A stretch of DNA of 35,582 nt from a virus. The notes beneath the pieces are model-generated. The model had not been told where the DNA came from, did no database searches, and saw only the letters and a list, made by a program, of their open reading frames with translations. The stretch's first letter is position 1. Each line of letters starts with the position of its first letter. The DNA is taken from positions 1 to 35,582 of IMG/VR virus record IMGVR_UViG_3300030329_006120; one strand, given 5' to 3'. The position numbers and the translations under genes were made by a program. Below, in pieces: positions 24,541-35,582 of this stretch.

Positions 24541-26580
24541 ATGCCACAGAATAAAGCCTATAAAGATAGAATTGTTATAGTAGACGCCGACCAGGTGGGA
24601 CCAAAGGATCGGACGACAAATCCGGATGGTTTTCACCCTATGGTAAGAGATATTTGGTCAACAGGCGCCTTGCGTGGTTTTAAAAGCGTACTGAAAGACG
24701 AATTCCGCGCGGTCTTAGGAAATTATTACACCATCTACCTTAGTTCTAAAGGCAGTACCCTCTGGAATTACTCTAACCCCGGAGATGCAGTCGATCACTC
24801 TACTCCTGGGGTGGGTCGTCTTGATACTCAAGTAGAAAATATTGTGTTGGATTTAAATTACGATGCATCTGAAGTGAATCCTCGTATAGAAATTGTTGTC
24901 GACAACCACACCAACCAAGCATGGAATAATTTTCTCAATCGTTCAGATGAGTCGACATCTTATTTGGAGGAAATGCCTAATTTTGCTATATTTATGGGAC
25001 AAGTGTTCGGGGATATAGTCGGCACGTTTCTCGATGACCACACATCAACCCTCTATCTTGCATCCGAGAATCAAGAAATTAGAGAAAAATCGGGACTAGA
25101 GCTGAAGGTTGAAGGGAAATATCAATTTTATCTTAGCACTTCTCCTCCTTATGAAGAATTGATTTCGGACGCATCGCTCCCTGAGCACCTTTTGCCTAAC
25201 GCATACATTATGCAGGCTGAAAGATTAAATACGGGTTCTACTGCCGAAACCGACTACAATTTAACTTCTATTTCGTTAGATGGTAATATCCTTTGGTTCA
25301 ATGACAATACGGCTACAGAACTTAATGAAGGGGAATATTATCAGTTATATTCGGAAGCGGCACAGAACATGATCCAACAAGACACGTTGTCAACGACCGC
25401 TCAAAGTCTCAATTATCTTTCTAATGTGGGGATCTTGCATTCTGATTTGGGGATTACTGAGGAGGAACATATTTCCACCATTAGTGTGCCGTTTTATAAC
25501 AAGATCACAATAGGGAAGGATGAGGACGGCGTTACGGGACTTAATGCGGCGAACAAGGTTCTCAAAACATTAGCCAACGATCCCGAAACTAAAGACATCA
25601 TCGACTATTTGCAGCTTAGAGCTATTAACAGCCTCGCCACCGATGCTGTCGGATCTGCAAACAGATCGTTCCAAGTAACTACGCGAACTCAGAACAGTGC
25701 TACTGATGCACAAGATTTTGCCTTTAACACTCGATTGCGTGGGTATGAGGTGTTGTTCGTCGCAACAGACCATCCCTCCGCGCTACCTATCGGTACCCAG
25801 CCTGAGATTGCATCGCCCGATGAGATGGAAAGACTCACTGAATACAACAACGATAGTATGAGCCCAGATTTCATTTTACTTAGAGATTTTGCACGTGCAA
25901 GCTTTGATCTCACGCCCGACCACGTTGATAATGCGAGAGTAGAGCTAACAACAGCGGATGGCTCTGTAGCACTGAGAAACTTTATAAAGAAGTATTCTCA
26001 AATCTTAGCCGGGACTCCTTGTCATACTGAAACCTTAATGTATGTGATTGAGAAGCGCAGAGTCATCGACAATAATCCGGGCGAAGTAGTGCAGAAATTT
26101 TTTATTTCCAATCGCTTTAGCGAGGAAGAGGTACCGATAACAATATACGACACACAGGTTAAGTATGGTCAGCGCTATATTTATGATATTAAGAAGGTTA
26201 GTGTTGTGTTTGGAAATAGATATCTTTATCATGCCCCTCTTGTCGACCCAATCCCGGCTGACGAAGACTCCCCACAGGGACAGAAAAGTCTTCCGCAAGG
26301 AGAGTTTGATCCGGGCGACATCTTTACGGATTTAGGTGAGAGAATTCAAGAAGAAGCAGAAGGTCTGCTTGCCGACTATGAAACAACATTCGAGCCAACA
26401 GCCGCAGAAATCGAAGATCAGCTAAATCAAATGATAAACTTTGGTGCTTCTCTCCCTTCCGCAAGTCCGAGCGGACCTATTGGTGGTCCACGACCTACCA
26501 GCCTCGCCGGGGCAGCGACATATGTGCAGGTTGATTTGGGGCTCGAAGAATTGGCGACAAGATTTGAAGGGGAGAAATAA
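24541..26580 (+). CDS. Virion structural protein with FN3-like C-terminal segment (679 aa)
   Basis: No named family. The N-terminal ~90 residues include a WSTGALRGFKSVLKDEFRAV helix. Residues ~100-300 are mixed beta with several aromatic residues. Residues ~500-570 (VQKFFISNRFSEEEVPITIY, then DTQVKYGQRYIYDI and FGNRYLYH) have the strand spacing of a fibronectin-III-like sandwich. The C-terminal ~100 residues are acidic and Gly/Pro/Ser-rich, probably flexible. The next gene starts 1 nt after this stop, on a GGGGAG ribosome site lying inside this gene's final codons. The two proteins may work together, or represent one ancestral polypeptide now in two parts. Probable role: exposed tail or baseplate component. 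Confidence 0.62.
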   Translation: MPQNKAYKDRIVIVDADQVGPKDRTTNPDGFHPMVRDIWSTGALRGFKSVLKDEFRAVLGNYYTIYLSSKGSTLWNYSNPGDAVDHSTPGVGRLDTQVENIVLDLNYDASEVNPRIEIVVDNHTNQAWNNFLNRSDESTSYLEEMPNFAIFMGQVFGDIVGTFLDDHTSTLYLASENQEIREKSGLELKVEGKYQFYLSTSPPYEELISDASLPEHLLPNAYIMQAERLNTGSTAETDYNLTSISLDGNILWFNDNTATELNEGEYYQLYSEAAQNMIQQDTLSTTAQSLNYLSNVGILHSDLGITEEEHISTISVPFYNKITIGKDEDGVTGLNAANKVLKTLANDPETKDIIDYLQLRAINSLATDAVGSANRSFQVTTRTQNSATDAQDFAFNTRLRGYEVLFVATDHPSALPIGTQPEIASPDEMERLTEYNNDSMSPDFILLRDFARASFDLTPDHVDNARVELTTADGSVALRNFIKKYSQILAGTPCHTETLMYVIEKRRVIDNNPGEVVQKFFISNRFSEEEVPITIYDTQVKYGQRYIYDIKKVSVVFGNRYLYHAPLVDPIPADEDSPQGQKSLPQGEFDPGDIFTDLGERIQEEAEGLLADYETTFEPTAAEIEDQLNQMINFGASLPSASPSGPIGGPRPTSLAGAATYVQVDLGLEELATRFEGEK

Positions 26581-31503: not shown

Positions 31504-32036
31504 TGATTTTAGGATTAGACATTTCAACAAGCATAACAGGATATACTCTTTTAAGTAACGAAGGTCAAATTGAATCTGTAGGACACATCGACCTACGGAA
31601 AGAAAAGAACTTTTTTCGCAAGGCCGTCCTGGTCGAGCAGAGGCTCAACCAAATAACCAGCTATACGGAGATTGAGGCGATCTATATCGAACAATCTTTG
31701 CATTCCTTCCGAGCAGGACGTTCCTCAGCGCAGACTTTGTCATTATTATCAAAATTTAATGGCGTTGTGGCATGGATGTGTTATAATTTGTTCAGCTTGG
31801 AGCCCCAGTTTCTTGCGGCAACATCAGCTCGCAAGCTTTGCGGCATTAAGGTCCCCCGCGGCAGGAAAGCAAAAGAAGTAGTTTTTGATTTTGTGCTTGA
31901 CTATGCGGATGGGTTTGATGTAGAATATACAAGATTCGGTAATCCAAAGCCAGGATATGGTGACAGAGCCGATAGCTATGTGATTGCAAAGGCTGGACTC
32001 ATCTGTGAAAGACAAAAAGCTCAAGATCTTAACTAG
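31503..32036 (+). CDS. RuvC-like Holliday-junction resolvase/endonuclease (177 aa)
   Basis: Shows an RNase H-fold RuvC signature: D6 in ILGLDISTS at the first strand, E63 in AIYIEQSLHSF at the fourth strand, and D154/D157 in GDRADSYVIAKAG in the last helix. These are the acidic residues that bind the two catalytic metal ions. A loop S-F-R-A-G-R-S-S (67-75) matches the substrate-facing region after the second acidic residue. Length is normal for RuvC-like phage enzymes. It probably resolves branched DNA during replication, recombination or packaging, a job done by gp49 (endonuclease VII, a different fold) in T4. It overlaps the start of the primase gene by 32 nt with the start I prefer. Confidence 0.86.
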   Translation: MILGLDISTSITGYTLLSNEGQIESVGHIDLRKEKNFFRKAVLVEQRLNQITSYTEIEAIYIEQSLHSFRAGRSSAQTLSLLSKFNGVVAWMCYNLFSLEPQFLAATSARKLCGIKVPRGRKAKEVVFDFVLDYADGFDVEYTRFGNPKPGYGDRADSYVIAKAGLICERQKAQDLN

Positions 32037-32940
32037 AGTACTCGGACCGTCCTATCGGACTAATAATGAATTTCTTTTTAAGTGCCCTTATTGTGATCAT
32101 CATAAGCGCAAGTTTTCTGTTAACCTCGACAAAGGTTACTACAAGTGTTGGGTCTGTGATACGCGCGGCAAGAACATTTACCGTGTTGTTAGAAGATTCG
32201 GTACGAATCATGATAAAGGACAGTGGCGAGAGTTTACAGACGCTGTTGAATACGACAAGCTCGAAGATCTTTTCGCAGAGAAAGTCGAAGAAAAACAAGT
32301 AGTTGAGATGCCAGAGGGCTTTGTGTCCCTCGCCAACAAGGATGTTCCACCCACAGGGTTTGCAGCGCGCAACTATTTGCGCAAGCGCAGCATTGACAAA
32401 AAAGACATTGTGTGGTGGAAGATGGGATATTGCGCCAATGGCGAGTATGAAGGTCGCATCATCATTCCGTCGTTTGATGAAGAAGGCGATCTGACCTACT
32501 TTGTATCTCGCTCCTACGACAAGAAGTTTTATCCCAAATATAAGAACCCGCCAGTTAGCAAGAATATCATTTTCAACGACTTGTTCGTGGATTGGAGTTC
32601 CGATATCATTTTGGTGGAGGGTGTATTTGATGCGATTACAGCAGGCAGAAACGCCGTGCCCATCCTGGGATCTACGTTAAATCAGAACTCTGTTTTGCTC
32701 CGCAAGATCGTGAAAGAAGATGCGGGAGTTTATGTGGCTTTGGACCCTGACGCAAAGAAGAAAGAGCTTGAGATTATCAAGACTTTGCTCGATTTTGATA
32801 TTGAGGTTTGGAAGGTTGATATTGGCGACAACGAGGATGTTGGCTCGATGAACAAGAAACAATTCCGAAAATGCCTGGAAAATGCGACCCTTATCACCCC
32901 AGACAACTATTTATTGTTGACGCTCACAATGTCCGTCTAG
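32005..32940 (+). CDS. DNA primase, DnaG type with zinc ribbon and TOPRIM (311 aa)
   Basis: I place the start at GTG 32005 (MKDKKLKIL). The upstream in-frame TTG at 31984 gives 7 extra residues inside the RuvC gene; neither start has a strong ribosome site. Residues 27-51 hold a zinc ribbon: CPYC, 17 residues, CWVC. Residues ~200-282 form the TOPRIM domain with E205 in ILVEGVFDAITAG, D247 and D249 in VALDPDA, and a later GDNEDVGSM acidic stretch. This is the DnaG/T4 gp61 architecture, making RNA primers at the fork. There is no C-terminal helicase-interaction domain of bacterial DnaG length. No replicative helicase is in the window. Confidence 0.9.
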   Translation: MKDKKLKILTRVLGPSYRTNNEFLFKCPYCDHHKRKFSVNLDKGYYKCWVCDTRGKNIYRVVRRFGTNHDKGQWREFTDAVEYDKLEDLFAEKVEEKQVVEMPEGFVSLANKDVPPTGFAARNYLRKRSIDKKDIVWWKMGYCANGEYEGRIIIPSFDEEGDLTYFVSRSYDKKFYPKYKNPPVSKNIIFNDLFVDWSSDIILVEGVFDAITAGRNAVPILGSTLNQNSVLLRKIVKEDAGVYVALDPDAKKKELEIIKTLLDFDIEVWKVDIGDNEDVGSMNKKQFRKCLENATLITPDNYLLLTLTMSV

Positions 32941-32947
32941 GAGTCCT

Positions 32948-33163
32948 ATGAAAATCTCAACATCGCGCCTAAAGCAAATCATCCACGAGGAACTCTTTTA
33001 TCGAGAGTTTCATCGAGGAACACAAGAATTAGAAGAAGCCAAGAAAGCCAAGGACGAGCGCATCTCGCGAAAGATCGCCTATTTGGTTGACAAAGAAGGA
33101 AAAGATCCGAAACAGGCGACGGCAATTGCTCACTCAATGGAAGAGCGTGGAGAACTAGAATGA
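32948..33163 (+). CDS. Tagged small protein 1: MKI-tag plus short helical body (71 aa)
   Basis: First of six consecutive genes with a shared N-terminal tag (MKISTSRLKQIIHEEL here). A strong ribosome site, TAGGAG, overlaps the end of the primase gene, 5 nt before ATG. The body is short and helical: charged linker (ELEEAKKAKDERISRK), then DPKQATAIAHSMEERGELE, a helix seen in small phage proteins with a K-Q-A-x-A-I-A-x-S-M pattern. The stop (TGA) overlaps the start of the next gene by 4 nt (ATGA). Function unknown; see the tag cassette finding. Confidence 0.7.
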   Translation: MKISTSRLKQIIHEELFYREFHRGTQELEEAKKAKDERISRKIAYLVDKEGKDPKQATAIAHSMEERGELE

Positions 33164-33483
33164 AAATCACCAAACAAAGACTAAAAGAGATTATCAAGGA
33201 AGAGCTTCAATCGGAAGCACGCCCTGCTTCGGAACGCCCCGATAGAGGAGGGCCCACCTTTGACATGAGCGTTGAAGAGTTAGTCAACGAAGCTCAATTG
33301 GCTTTGAGGCAGCTTGACGAGAGCGTCCTTGATTTTAACAGCGCTATCGCTCGCCTCACAGAAGAGCCTCACAAGCTAGGAGAGTTTGTGCACCTTAGCA
33401 CTCATGGTCGGATGCTGGGGGATAAGCTAGAAGACCTCAAAGAACGATGGACGATTGCTTTGGGCAATTCTCAAAAGGAATAA
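33160..33483 (+). CDS. Tagged small protein 2: MKI-tag plus helical body (107 aa)
   Basis: Second tag gene; tag is MKITKQRLKEIIKEEL, nearly identical at DNA level to that of gene 3 (about 4 differences in 47 bases). The body begins with a polar, probably disordered stretch (residues ~17-40) and then a long amphipathic helical region (EELVNEAQLALRQLDESVLD; HLSTHGRMLGDKLEDLKERW). GGAG lies upstream in the end of gene 1, with an ATGA overlap. No enzymatic motif is visible and it is not related in its body to the other five. Confidence 0.7.
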   Translation: MKITKQRLKEIIKEELQSEARPASERPDRGGPTFDMSVEELVNEAQLALRQLDESVLDFNSAIARLTEEPHKLGEFVHLSTHGRMLGDKLEDLKERWTIALGNSQKE

Positions 33484-33488
33484 TCAAA

Positions 33489-33989
33489 ATGAAAATCACC
33501 AAACAAAGACTTAAAGAGATCATCAAAGAAGAGCTGGATGCCATGCGCGGCTCTGTCCGTCTCGGCGCTGACATTGATGAACTGCCGGAGCCGGAGGAGG
33601 AGGAAGATCTTTCTCGGGAAGGTGGAACTTCTCTGGAGCGTCTCCTCAATAAGCTATTAATTAGAGTAGAGGTAGACCGCTTTGAAAGCGCCGAAGAAGC
33701 CGCAGAATGGCTGGGCGTTGACGAGACTGACGAGGAGCTAATGGGCTATCTTAGAAAGGTTATGGACGATTCCTTCTTGGCTCCGATGGAAGAAGGTTGG
33801 GGACAAGGAGATCGCGCATACCAGCAGGCTACCCAGCTTTTGGGCAAGCACGCACAGATGCATGGACTTCGCAATGCGGTTGCCACTGCGCTTCGTCAGA
33901 AGAGGATCAGCCCCCAGCAGGTTCAAAGAGCCGCTCAGGGTGCAGTCTCATCTTATCAGGTAGCCCAGCGACTAGGTTTAGGAGAATAA
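33489..33989 (+). CDS. Tagged small protein 3: MKI-tag plus ~150-aa body (166 aa)
   Basis: I choose ATG 33489 because it produces the tag MKITKQRLKEIIKEEL found in the neighbouring genes and has an AAGGA site 9 nt upstream; an earlier in-frame ATG at 33447 lies inside gene 2 and would put 14 extra residues before the tag. The body has an acidic stretch of mostly Glu, Pro and Asp (residues ~30-45), then helical modules: RLLNKLLIRVEVDRFESAEE, AAEWLGVDETDEELMGYLRK, and a C-terminal Gln/Ala-rich helix bundle (RISPQQVQRAAQGAVSSYQV). The stop is 1 nt before gene 4. No known family. Confidence 0.72.
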   Translation: MKITKQRLKEIIKEELDAMRGSVRLGADIDELPEPEEEEDLSREGGTSLERLLNKLLIRVEVDRFESAEEAAEWLGVDETDEELMGYLRKVMDDSFLAPMEEGWGQGDRAYQQATQLLGKHAQMHGLRNAVATALRQKRISPQQVQRAAQGAVSSYQVAQRLGLGE

Positions 33990-33990
33990 A

Positions 33991-34281
33991 ATGAAGATTT
34001 CAAAAGCAAAACTACGACAGATCATCCGCGAAGAGCTTAACGAGAGCGAGTGGGACGACCCCTCGACGGCTCGGTCCTCGGCCGAAGCGGCTCACGATCT
34101 AACTAAGGGCGCTCCCATTGACGCTCTTCTTCGGGCTCTGCGTGTAGTATCCTCCCCGATGTTAGACGCAACAATTCGTAAGCTAGCCTTCGATGTCGTT
34201 AAAGATTTGGAAGAGGCGGATTTCAATGATTTTGTTGCAGCTCTGCAGTATGCACGCGACCCTCACGGCGAAGGTTTTTAA
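33991..34281 (+). CDS. Tagged small protein 4: MKI-tag plus helical body (96 aa)
   Basis: The tag is MKISKAKLRQIIREEL, with AGGAG 8 nt before the ATG. After a polar Asp/Ser stretch (~17-38) the body is a compact helical domain: GAPIDALLRALRVVSSPMLD, ATIRKLAFDVVKDLEEADF, NDFVAALQYARD. It ends GEGF-stop, 1 nt before gene 5 begins. Not recognised; the body differs from those of the other tag genes, while the tag is almost identical to that of gene 5. Confidence 0.7.
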   Translation: MKISKAKLRQIIREELNESEWDDPSTARSSAEAAHDLTKGAPIDALLRALRVVSSPMLDATIRKLAFDVVKDLEEADFNDFVAALQYARDPHGEGF

Positions 34282-34282
34282 A

Positions 34283-34756
34283 ATGAAGATTTCAAAAGCA
34301 AAGCTGCGGCAGATTATCAAGGAAGAGCTACACGAAGCGCGCTACTCGCGCCCCGATGCCACCGAGCAGGACATCCGCGACGCCGAGGAGGTTTTGGTTG
34401 AGTTAGCAGAGCAGTATCCCGGCTTGATCGCTCAGTTTGACAAAGAACAGATCCTCCAGGGCCTGATCTGGTGGTCCTCCAACATCGGCGGCGGCAAGCA
34501 TTGGACCAAATGGCAGCCGGCTCTCCTCAACGTTTTAGAAGAGTTGTCATCGGGAAGCCTCAATGAGGGCGCCGACCGGGTTCACTGGCGCGAATCACGC
34601 AATAAAGAAACTGGCAAGACCTTAGAGGAGATGCTGCAGTGGCTGTCGCAATGGGCCACCAGCTTAGAGGCCCATCATGCTGATACCCCCGAGGACAAAG
34701 AGAGGCTTAGACTAGTCCATCTTACAATAGAAGAAGCTGCAGCTTTACTAAAATAA
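34283..34756 (+). CDS. Tagged small protein 5: MKI-tag plus Trp-rich helical body (157 aa)
   Basis: I place the start at ATG 34283, since it gives the tag MKISKAKLRQIIKEEL and has an AAGG site upstream; an in-frame ATG at 34193 lies within gene 4 and adds 30 unlike residues. The body is helical and Trp-rich: DIRDAEEVLVELAEQYPGLI, QILQGLIWWSSNIGGGKHWT, LEEMLQWLSQWATSLEAHH and a closing Leu/Ala helix. An acidic, Gly-bearing loop separates the halves. No family recognised; the body is unlike the other tag genes. Confidence 0.72.
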   Translation: MKISKAKLRQIIKEELHEARYSRPDATEQDIRDAEEVLVELAEQYPGLIAQFDKEQILQGLIWWSSNIGGGKHWTKWQPALLNVLEELSSGSLNEGADRVHWRESRNKETGKTLEEMLQWLSQWATSLEAHHADTPEDKERLRLVHLTIEEAAALLK

Positions 34757-34760
34757 TAAA

Positions 34761-35153
34761 ATGAAACTAACCAAAGCAAAACTAAAGCAAATTATTAGAG
34801 AAGAACTGGAAGAAGTGGAAGGTCTTGGTGGCACCTACGACTTTCTAATATACTCCGCGGGTCACCACCGGGGCGATCGCTCGCGTCCAGTGGCGTATGT
34901 GACCGGTGTGCCTCTCGACAAGATAGACACATCAAGCTATGTTAGCCACAAAGAAGACGGCTATCGCAGCCCGGAAAGATTCTTTGAATTAAAGCCAGAA
35001 TTTATGGAAGAGTTGGGGTTCACGGGACTTAGGGCTCGGTGGCTTGAGGAAGGTCCACCCGAGTCCATCCAAATTACCGCCAATTACAATCTTGATACCG
35101 GAGAACTTACGGCGCTTGACGAGCCCCCTCGGATTATAGATTACACATCTTGA
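34761..35153 (+). CDS. Tagged small protein 6: MKL-tag plus mixed alpha/beta body (130 aa)
   Basis: The last tag gene. Tag MKLTKAKLKQIIREEL, slightly divergent (Leu at position 3). The ATG follows an AT-rich stretch with no good ribosome site, so translation may depend on reinitiation after gene 5, whose stop is 4 nt upstream. The body is not helical like the others: YDFLIYSAGHHRGDRSRPVA starts a beta-rich domain, followed by PERFFELKPEFMEELGFTGL and a C-terminal strand pair (SIQITANYNLDTGELTALDE). No known family. It ends 77 nt before the next gene, where the operon seems to finish or restart. Confidence 0.68.
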   Translation: MKLTKAKLKQIIREELEEVEGLGGTYDFLIYSAGHHRGDRSRPVAYVTGVPLDKIDTSSYVSHKEDGYRSPERFFELKPEFMEELGFTGLRARWLEEGPPESIQITANYNLDTGELTALDEPPRIIDYTS

Positions 35154-35230
35154 CAGCAAAATTACTAAAATAATCCTTGACACCACCTACACGTCCTGTA
35201 TACTAGTGTTATAGCTTAGGGGATAACTAC
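35154..35230 (+). promoter_or_regulatory. Intergenic region with near-consensus sigma70 promoter and ribosome site
   Basis: TTGACA at 35177-35182 and TATACT at 35199-35204 are separated by 16 nt, and TG directly precedes the -10 box. A transcript would start near 35211. AGGGGA at 35218-35223 lies 7 nt before the GTG at 35231. This is the best promoter in the window and would drive the recombination nuclease independently of the upstream late-type operon. No terminator hairpin is seen between the upstream stop and the promoter, so read-through is possible. Confidence 0.75.
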
Positions 35231-35582
35231 GTGTACAAGATCGCTCATATTGCGGACACGCATATAAAAAACTTAAAATTTCATTATGAATACAAGAAGG
35301 TATTCGAACAACTTTACGATATCCTTCGTAAAGAGAACGTGGACTACATCGTTCACTGCGGCGACATCGCCCACACCAAGACACAGATTTCACCAGAGTT
35401 CGTTGAGCTTTGCTCCGACTTTTTCGCAAACCTGGCGTCCATCGCACCAACCTACATCATTCTGGGCAACCACGACGGCAACCTAAAGAACAGTACGCGC
35501 CAGGACGCGCTGTCGCCGATTGTGAAGGCTTTGGACCTCCCGGACCTACATCTGCTCAAGAACGCGGGTGAAACCGTTCTAG
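35231..35582 (+). CDS. SbcD/Mre11-type recombination nuclease subunit (T4 gp47-like), 3' truncated
   Basis: 117 codons are visible from a GTG start; the frame is open at the window end. Metallophosphoesterase motifs in order: D9-x-H11 in IAHIADTHIK, G44-D45 in VHCGDIAH, and G79-N80-H81-D82 in IILGNHDG. These are motifs I-III of Mre11/SbcD nucleases. The partner in T4 is gp46 (Rad50/SbcC-like), which should be encoded downstream outside the window. The pair processes double-strand ends for recombination-dependent replication and degrades host DNA. Start chosen because of the AGGGGA site 7 nt upstream and because the family begins directly with this first strand. Confidence 0.92.
   Translation, partial: MYKIAHIADTHIKNLKFHYEYKKVFEQLYDILRKENVDYIVHCGDIAHTKTQISPEFVELCSDFFANLASIAPTYIILGNHDGNLKNSTRQDALSPIVKALDLPDLHLLKNAGETVL

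Follow-up and report, generated by a model that had tools for sequence, protein, structure and literature searches.

A shared N-terminal leader on unrelated small proteins of uncultured T4-superfamily phages, a probable capsid-targeting signal

A cassette of six genes with one leader

The IMG/VR viral record IMGVR_UViG_3300030329_006120, analysed here as a single window of 35,582 nucleotides, contains six small genes which begin with nearly the same 16 residues and then continue into unrelated proteins. The 35.6-kb window encodes baseplate wedge proteins matching PHROGs of the T4 superfamily, RuvC, a primase, the six-gene cassette and the start of SbcD. The DnaG-like primase (31984..32940, + strand) forms the left border of the cassette locus and the SbcD-like phosphoesterase (35231..35582, +), which is cut by the end of the record, forms the right border, and both borders are conserved. 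The six open reading frames (ORFs) are all on the + strand and lie head to tail, with neighbours adjoining or overlapping by 4 nucleotides. With a slash at each putative cleavage site, they are gene 1 (32948..33163, 71 residues, MKISTSRLKQIIHE/EL...), gene 2 (33160..33483, 107 residues, MKITKQRLKEIIKE/EL...), gene 3 (33489..33989, 166 residues, MKITKQRLKEIIKE/EL..., its C-terminal half being mosaic), gene 4 (33991..34281, 96 residues, MKISKAKLRQIIRE/ELNE...), gene 5 (34283..34756, 157 residues, MKISKAKLRQIIKE/ELHE/A...) and gene 6 (34761..35153, 130 residues, MKLTKAKLKQIIRE/ELEE...).

The six leaders follow M-K-[IL]-[ST]-x-x-x-L-[KR]-[QE]-I-I-x-E-E-L, and L8, I11, I12, E14, E15 and L16 are unchanged in all of them. 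An earlier sequence-only reading had described six adjacent genes with one N-terminal tag, unrelated bodies and an invariant I12-x-E14, and our ORF analysis, body comparison and Pfam and PHROG searches bore this out. Its tag formula beginning MKI applies to five genes, while gene 6 begins MKL, and the positive charge that it placed at position 5 or 7 is not a universal K5, because position 5 is T in gene 1 (MKISTSRLKQIIHEEL). Beyond the leader, no similarity was found among the six bodies (proteins of 71-166 residues including the leader), and Pfam and PHROG gave no useful family for them apart from a weak match of the gene 1 body to phrog_2423 (1.1e-5). The gene 4 body had no relative among the tagged proteins compared, and a scan of IMG/VR with gene 5 returned matches to the leader part only and none to the body. 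Genes 2 and 3 share one and the same 16-residue leader, encoded with four synonymous and no non-synonymous codon differences. A low-confidence model of gene 3 consisted of a leader helix (residues 5-20), a disordered linker and a helical body, and a low-confidence single-sequence model of gene 6 had the same leader helix (5-20) followed by a beta-rich body. A fold search with the AlphaFold models of genes 3 and 6 was dropped because the models were too weak.

Spread of the leader and a second leader class

A search for the leader across the window record found exactly six places, which are the six cassette genes. IMG/VR was searched for the leader with a degenerate codon pattern, and a version of this pattern in reversed codon order served as control. 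The leader pattern occurred in at least 120 IMG/VR stretches and the reversed pattern in none, and the leader was also absent from 32 long control contigs chosen by a random 14-mer; a chance origin of the shared leader is excluded. The search of this genome and of other phages proposed in the sequence-only reading had therefore the same six places in the record and many more elsewhere as its outcome, and the tag was N-terminal in its homologues: in the DNA of the matches listed, to which the following counts also refer, 218 of 220 relaxed matches lay directly at a start codon. The carriers were uncultured, mostly large phages, and the 218 distinct leader proteins fell into 174 body families, 150 of which were singletons. 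No description of this leader was found in the literature searched.

Conservation is nearly complete at M1, K2, I3, T4, K5, L8, I11, I12, E14 and E15, with E14 invariant and position 12 occupied by I or L in all but one of the 174 representatives, several of these positions including E14 being part of the search pattern. Conservation is weak after E15, a stretch outside the pattern, up to residue 22, and is then gone. A second [LIVMF]-x-E, which is also outside the pattern, peaks at E21/E22, in 24% and 35% of families against about 2% elsewhere (for example KVLNE/A and AVLSE/G). In T4, gp21 cleaves C-terminal to L/I-x-E and the internal proteins have N-terminal propeptides of 10-19 residues, and related head proteases have redundant sites within propeptides (PMC9026906). 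The leader may be cut at E14, at the second [LIVMF]-x-E near E21/E22, which most members have, or at both. The leader has a hydrophobic stripe at about 90 degrees, and synonymous codons in the 218 leader genes vary nearly as much as those of the bodies, so the peptide is what is selected. Eight internal leader-like copies, all M-initial inside longer ORFs, are most simply explained by gene fusion or wrongly called starts and were left out of the evidence. In two ORFs (L068:406-1608 and L284:9455-10573) a complete leader begins internally, at Met304 and Met191, respectively; the cargo may be fused and its internal leader cleavable, or the start may have been called wrongly.

A second leader with the consensus MKLLLENWRKFLNE was found in phages carrying the first one, in 60 of 3136 ORFs of leader contigs versus 0 of 1350 in controls (1.3 expected). 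Both leaders align without gaps from M1 to E14 and have K2, hydrophobic residues at 8, 11 and 12, and E14 in common. The T4 internal proteins IPII and IPIII start with MKTYQEFIAE, and mutations of the T4 capsid-targeting sequence (CTS) assign targeting to residues 4 and 7 and processing to residues 8 and 10 (PMC9026906). The Y4/F7/I8/E10 spacing of IPII and IPIII equals that of W8/F11/L12/E14 in the second leader and of L8/I11/I12/E14 in the first. The second leader reads W8-[FY]11-[LI]12-E14 at the T4-type positions; the Phi-x-x-Phi-[IL]-x-E spacing is present in both leaders, and the aromatic character of the T4 CTS in the second only. Second leaders stand on unrelated enzymes, often in runs of adjacent genes (L285, L295, L307, L309, L005, L052, L347 and others). 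With both kinds together, some long contigs have a dozen or more leader genes.

The second-leader cargo included ART-PolyVal ADP-ribosyltransferase, GNAT, NUDIX, GIY-YIG, AAA_33/zeta-type and protein-kinase domains, and the longer first-leader cargo included LRR, LysM and DUF6321 domains. Alt of T4 is an ADP-ribosyltransferase, and the ADP-ribosyltransferases of the second-leader cargo resemble it in this respect. Bodies were also found under both leaders: L082 (MKITKQRLKEIIKEE...) and L051 (MKLILENWNNFVNEE...) share one body, L002 and L059 (MSNSTSKWFKYLTEA...) share another, and L010 and L019 do so in part. Small recurring modules, such as xSEKQRRxxCAMxD... and DYLSNIYKWCPxGxKCxPEKxKTKWWKG, are shuffled among leader proteins at differing positions (L012:853-1305, L041, L116:1327-2384, L120, L019 and L023).

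Head genes and the cassette locus in relatives

The Pfam S77 (gp21-type) protease was encoded by 25 of 35 long leader contigs and by 3 of 32 random long contigs (Fisher 2.6e-7), and with contigs of at least 70 kb as controls the counts were 25/35 versus 1/7 (p = 0.008). A gp23-type capsid protein scored above the cut-off in 20 of the 35 long leader contigs. Nine of the ten S77-negative leader contigs also lacked a terminase and the tenth ends just after the terminase, and the absence of S77 is thus best read as contig truncation. G003 and G019, which carry many leaders and no S77, were rejected as counter-examples because terminase and portal are also missing from them (local hidden Markov models and a terminase search); PHROG scans of both found mainly replication, GroEL, baseplate and accessory genes, and their head module is probably off the contig through truncation. 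In the capsid proteins, an N-terminal delta region is closed by a predicted LL[RK]E/[AS] site (LLRE/T in one).

The sequence-only reading had raised the question of whether such genes map next to or away from the prohead protease. In S77 records, 54 of the 110 listed leaders lie within 15 kb of S77 where 25.1 were expected, in a test that counts leaders of the same cassette as independent. The pattern was seen in 20 different records, and several leaders abut S77. Directly or closely after S77, L131-L150 have a conserved gene of about 140 residues which starts M[KN]K[SA]ELKxxIKPxVKECIxExLxEEG with a leader-like helix; it is a candidate core protein and a possible origin of the leader. In the uncultured 484-kb phage LR756508 (L337:3505-5826), about six adjacent genes have divergent leader-like starts, for example MRLSGRKLKKLVIEELRGVLSEA and MNIKKSKLRKIIREEITRVLGG, and scaffold and capsid genes follow a few kb downstream of this run.

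Close relatives of the window phage showed what becomes of the cassette locus itself. G015 is syntenic with the window throughout the tail region, and five leader genes lie between its primase and SbcCD genes; genes 1-3 recur among them and the others differ. The gene 1 counterpart (G015 26297-26512) agrees with gene 1 in its leader and is clearly similar to it in its body, the gene 2 homologue in G015 is 61% identical, and gene 3 homologues are present in G015, G068, G071 and G072. G071 and G072 have three leader genes each between primase and SbcCD, and G068 has at least five at the cassette locus, gene 6 included. Apart from matches to the leader, a scan of IMG/VR with gene 6 found one relative, this G068 protein, which is 100% identical; window positions 34753-35206 are 97.6% identical to G068 (L344:1-454) over 454 nucleotides, and the adjoining backbone is about 73% identical. 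Judged from these identities, the gene 6 module appears to have been transferred recently. Downstream of the cassette and on the same strand, G015, G071 and G072 encode terminase, portal and S77, with S77 13-15 kb away, which places the relatives' cassettes upstream of the prohead protease. Beyond S77, G071 encodes a core protein, a gp22-like scaffold, a gp23-type major capsid protein with a predicted LL[RK]E/[AS] site, neck and sheath. Because relatives keep the leader at the same locus and differ in the bodies, the locus is seen as a variable cassette upstream of a T4-type head operon, in which bodies would be exchanged under a constant leader.

Capsid targeting and other explanations

A modular T4-like leader for prohead targeting, suggested previously from the six genes themselves, is supported by the co-occurrence of leaders with S77 and gp23, by their proximity to S77, by the T4-CTS-like second leader and by the body swaps. 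The first leader is most likely a modular capsid-targeting leader (propeptide) of a T4-type head, acting in both targeting and processing. We infer its steps to be core docking, proteolytic cleavage, packaging and ejection: the N-terminal 14-16 residues would dock the protein onto the internal core or scaffold during prohead assembly, the S77 (gp21-family) protease would cut after [LI]-x-E at E14 and/or E21/E22, and the bodies would be freed within the head and then injected together with the DNA. At the primase-SbcCD locus, bodies would be swapped under the unchanging leader. By analogy with T4, the bodies are probably ejected into the host with the DNA. It is also probable that a large group of uncultured T4-superfamily phages loads interchangeable effectors, among them ADP-ribosyltransferases, acetyltransferases, kinases, nucleases, LRR proteins and many proteins without assignment, into the head by two labels, from cassettes in which the leader stays constant.

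The leader might instead be an uncleaved docking tag, i.e., an amphipathic helix which gathers proteins on the replication compartment, the membrane or the tail with no proteolysis. The helical prediction separate from the body in the two low-confidence models, the hydrophobic stripe and the adjoining replication and repair genes (primase, SbcCD) are consistent with such a tag, but the invariant [LI]-x-E, the second [LI]-x-E, the co-occurrence and proximity of S77 and the exchangeable T4-CTS-like second leader all point to the prohead, and we consider the tag unlikely. Descent from recent duplicates with diverged bodies, in which the leader is a conserved remnant or a recombination handle with no targeting role, would agree with the recent move of gene 6 (97.6% versus 73%) and with leader-region DNA that is 80-94% identical over 50-76 nucleotides even between genes with different bodies. 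The 174 body families of differing lengths and domains, and the bodies moving between two different leaders, make simple divergence impossible, so that this origin is very unlikely, and a recombination-handle role may coexist with targeting. A role in expression, in which the shared start would enhance or control translation or label genes that are regulated together, is highly improbable. The leader does occupy the very 5' end of each gene and has a slightly lower codon entropy than the bodies, but the peptide is fixed while synonymous positions vary nearly freely, the major capsid protein, scaffold and portal genes, which should be highly expressed, have no leader, and conservation ends at residues 16-22 with a protease motif.

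Several observations weigh against capsid targeting. The core of the first leader is aliphatic and that of the T4 CTS is aromatic, and the bodies are mildly acidic whereas the T4 internal proteins are basic. In many first-leader bodies no effector domain can be recognised. The window record stops before the head-gene region, two long many-leader records (G003 and G019) have no detectable head genes, and the proximity count is affected by the non-independence of leaders within a cassette.

The closest known system is the T4 CTS of IPI, IPII, IPIII and Alt processed by gp21, likewise a short N-terminal leader on unrelated, fast-changing proteins, with [LI]-x-E at its end and the Phi-x-x-Phi-[IL]-x-E spacing (PMC9026906, PMC3012670). 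The leader phages also resemble T4 in that their own genomes encode a gp21-family protease, a gp23 capsid protein and a scaffold. The window leader differs from the T4 CTS in sequence, being an aliphatic helix (MKITKSQLKQIIKEE) of 14-22 residues rather than 10-19; several long contigs have 9-15 leader genes compared with four T4 cargo proteins, two leader classes coexist, and the leader genes form variable cassettes that precede the head operon. The six bodies had no Pfam or PHROG match to T4 internal-protein families, and hence they would work like IPI, IPII, IPIII and Alt without being members of those families. It is already stated in the T4 literature that a conserved CTS is all that the diverse internal proteins have in common (PMC3012670); new here are a leader that differs from it, two leaders that exist side by side, the scale, and the arrangement in cassettes. 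In giant phages of the phiKZ/SPN3US type, head proteins likewise have N-terminal propeptides, which a gp21-related protease removes by cleavage behind a short x-x-E motif, some propeptides are short (20-24 residues) and cleavage sites are redundant (PMC10052503, PMC9026906). Their motif is S/A-x-E or A-x-E, most of their propeptides exceed 100 residues, and the sections of these papers concerned with them describe no leader sequence common to several cargo proteins.

A short tblastn search of annotated phages with the leader returned nothing, a result possibly limited by the short query, and relatives were for this reason reached through the capsid protein. The nearest cultured leader carrier found here was Flavobacterium phage immuto_2-6A, whose gp080 (252 residues) starts MKKSQLRQIIKE/A. 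This phage also encodes gp20, a prohead protease and gp23, but only one leader gene was found in it, and the leader start is two residues shorter.

If capsid targeting is true, a 14-residue N-terminal signature would list the injected early-infection proteins of many uncultured phages from raw metagenomes, proteins that usually escape notice for lack of any relatives of their bodies. The T4 CTS principle would then have evolved at least one different leader, an increase from four to a dozen or more cargo proteins, and exchangeable cassettes. The new and naturally diverse leaders could also serve in loading foreign proteins into phage heads. A C-terminal motif, R[MW]xxLAGI[KI] or similar, was common to the scaffold gene and to a number of genes inserted next to the protease (L132:10298-12443; L143 and L148, reverse strand; L334:18725-19966), and may be a second, C-terminal head-docking signal.
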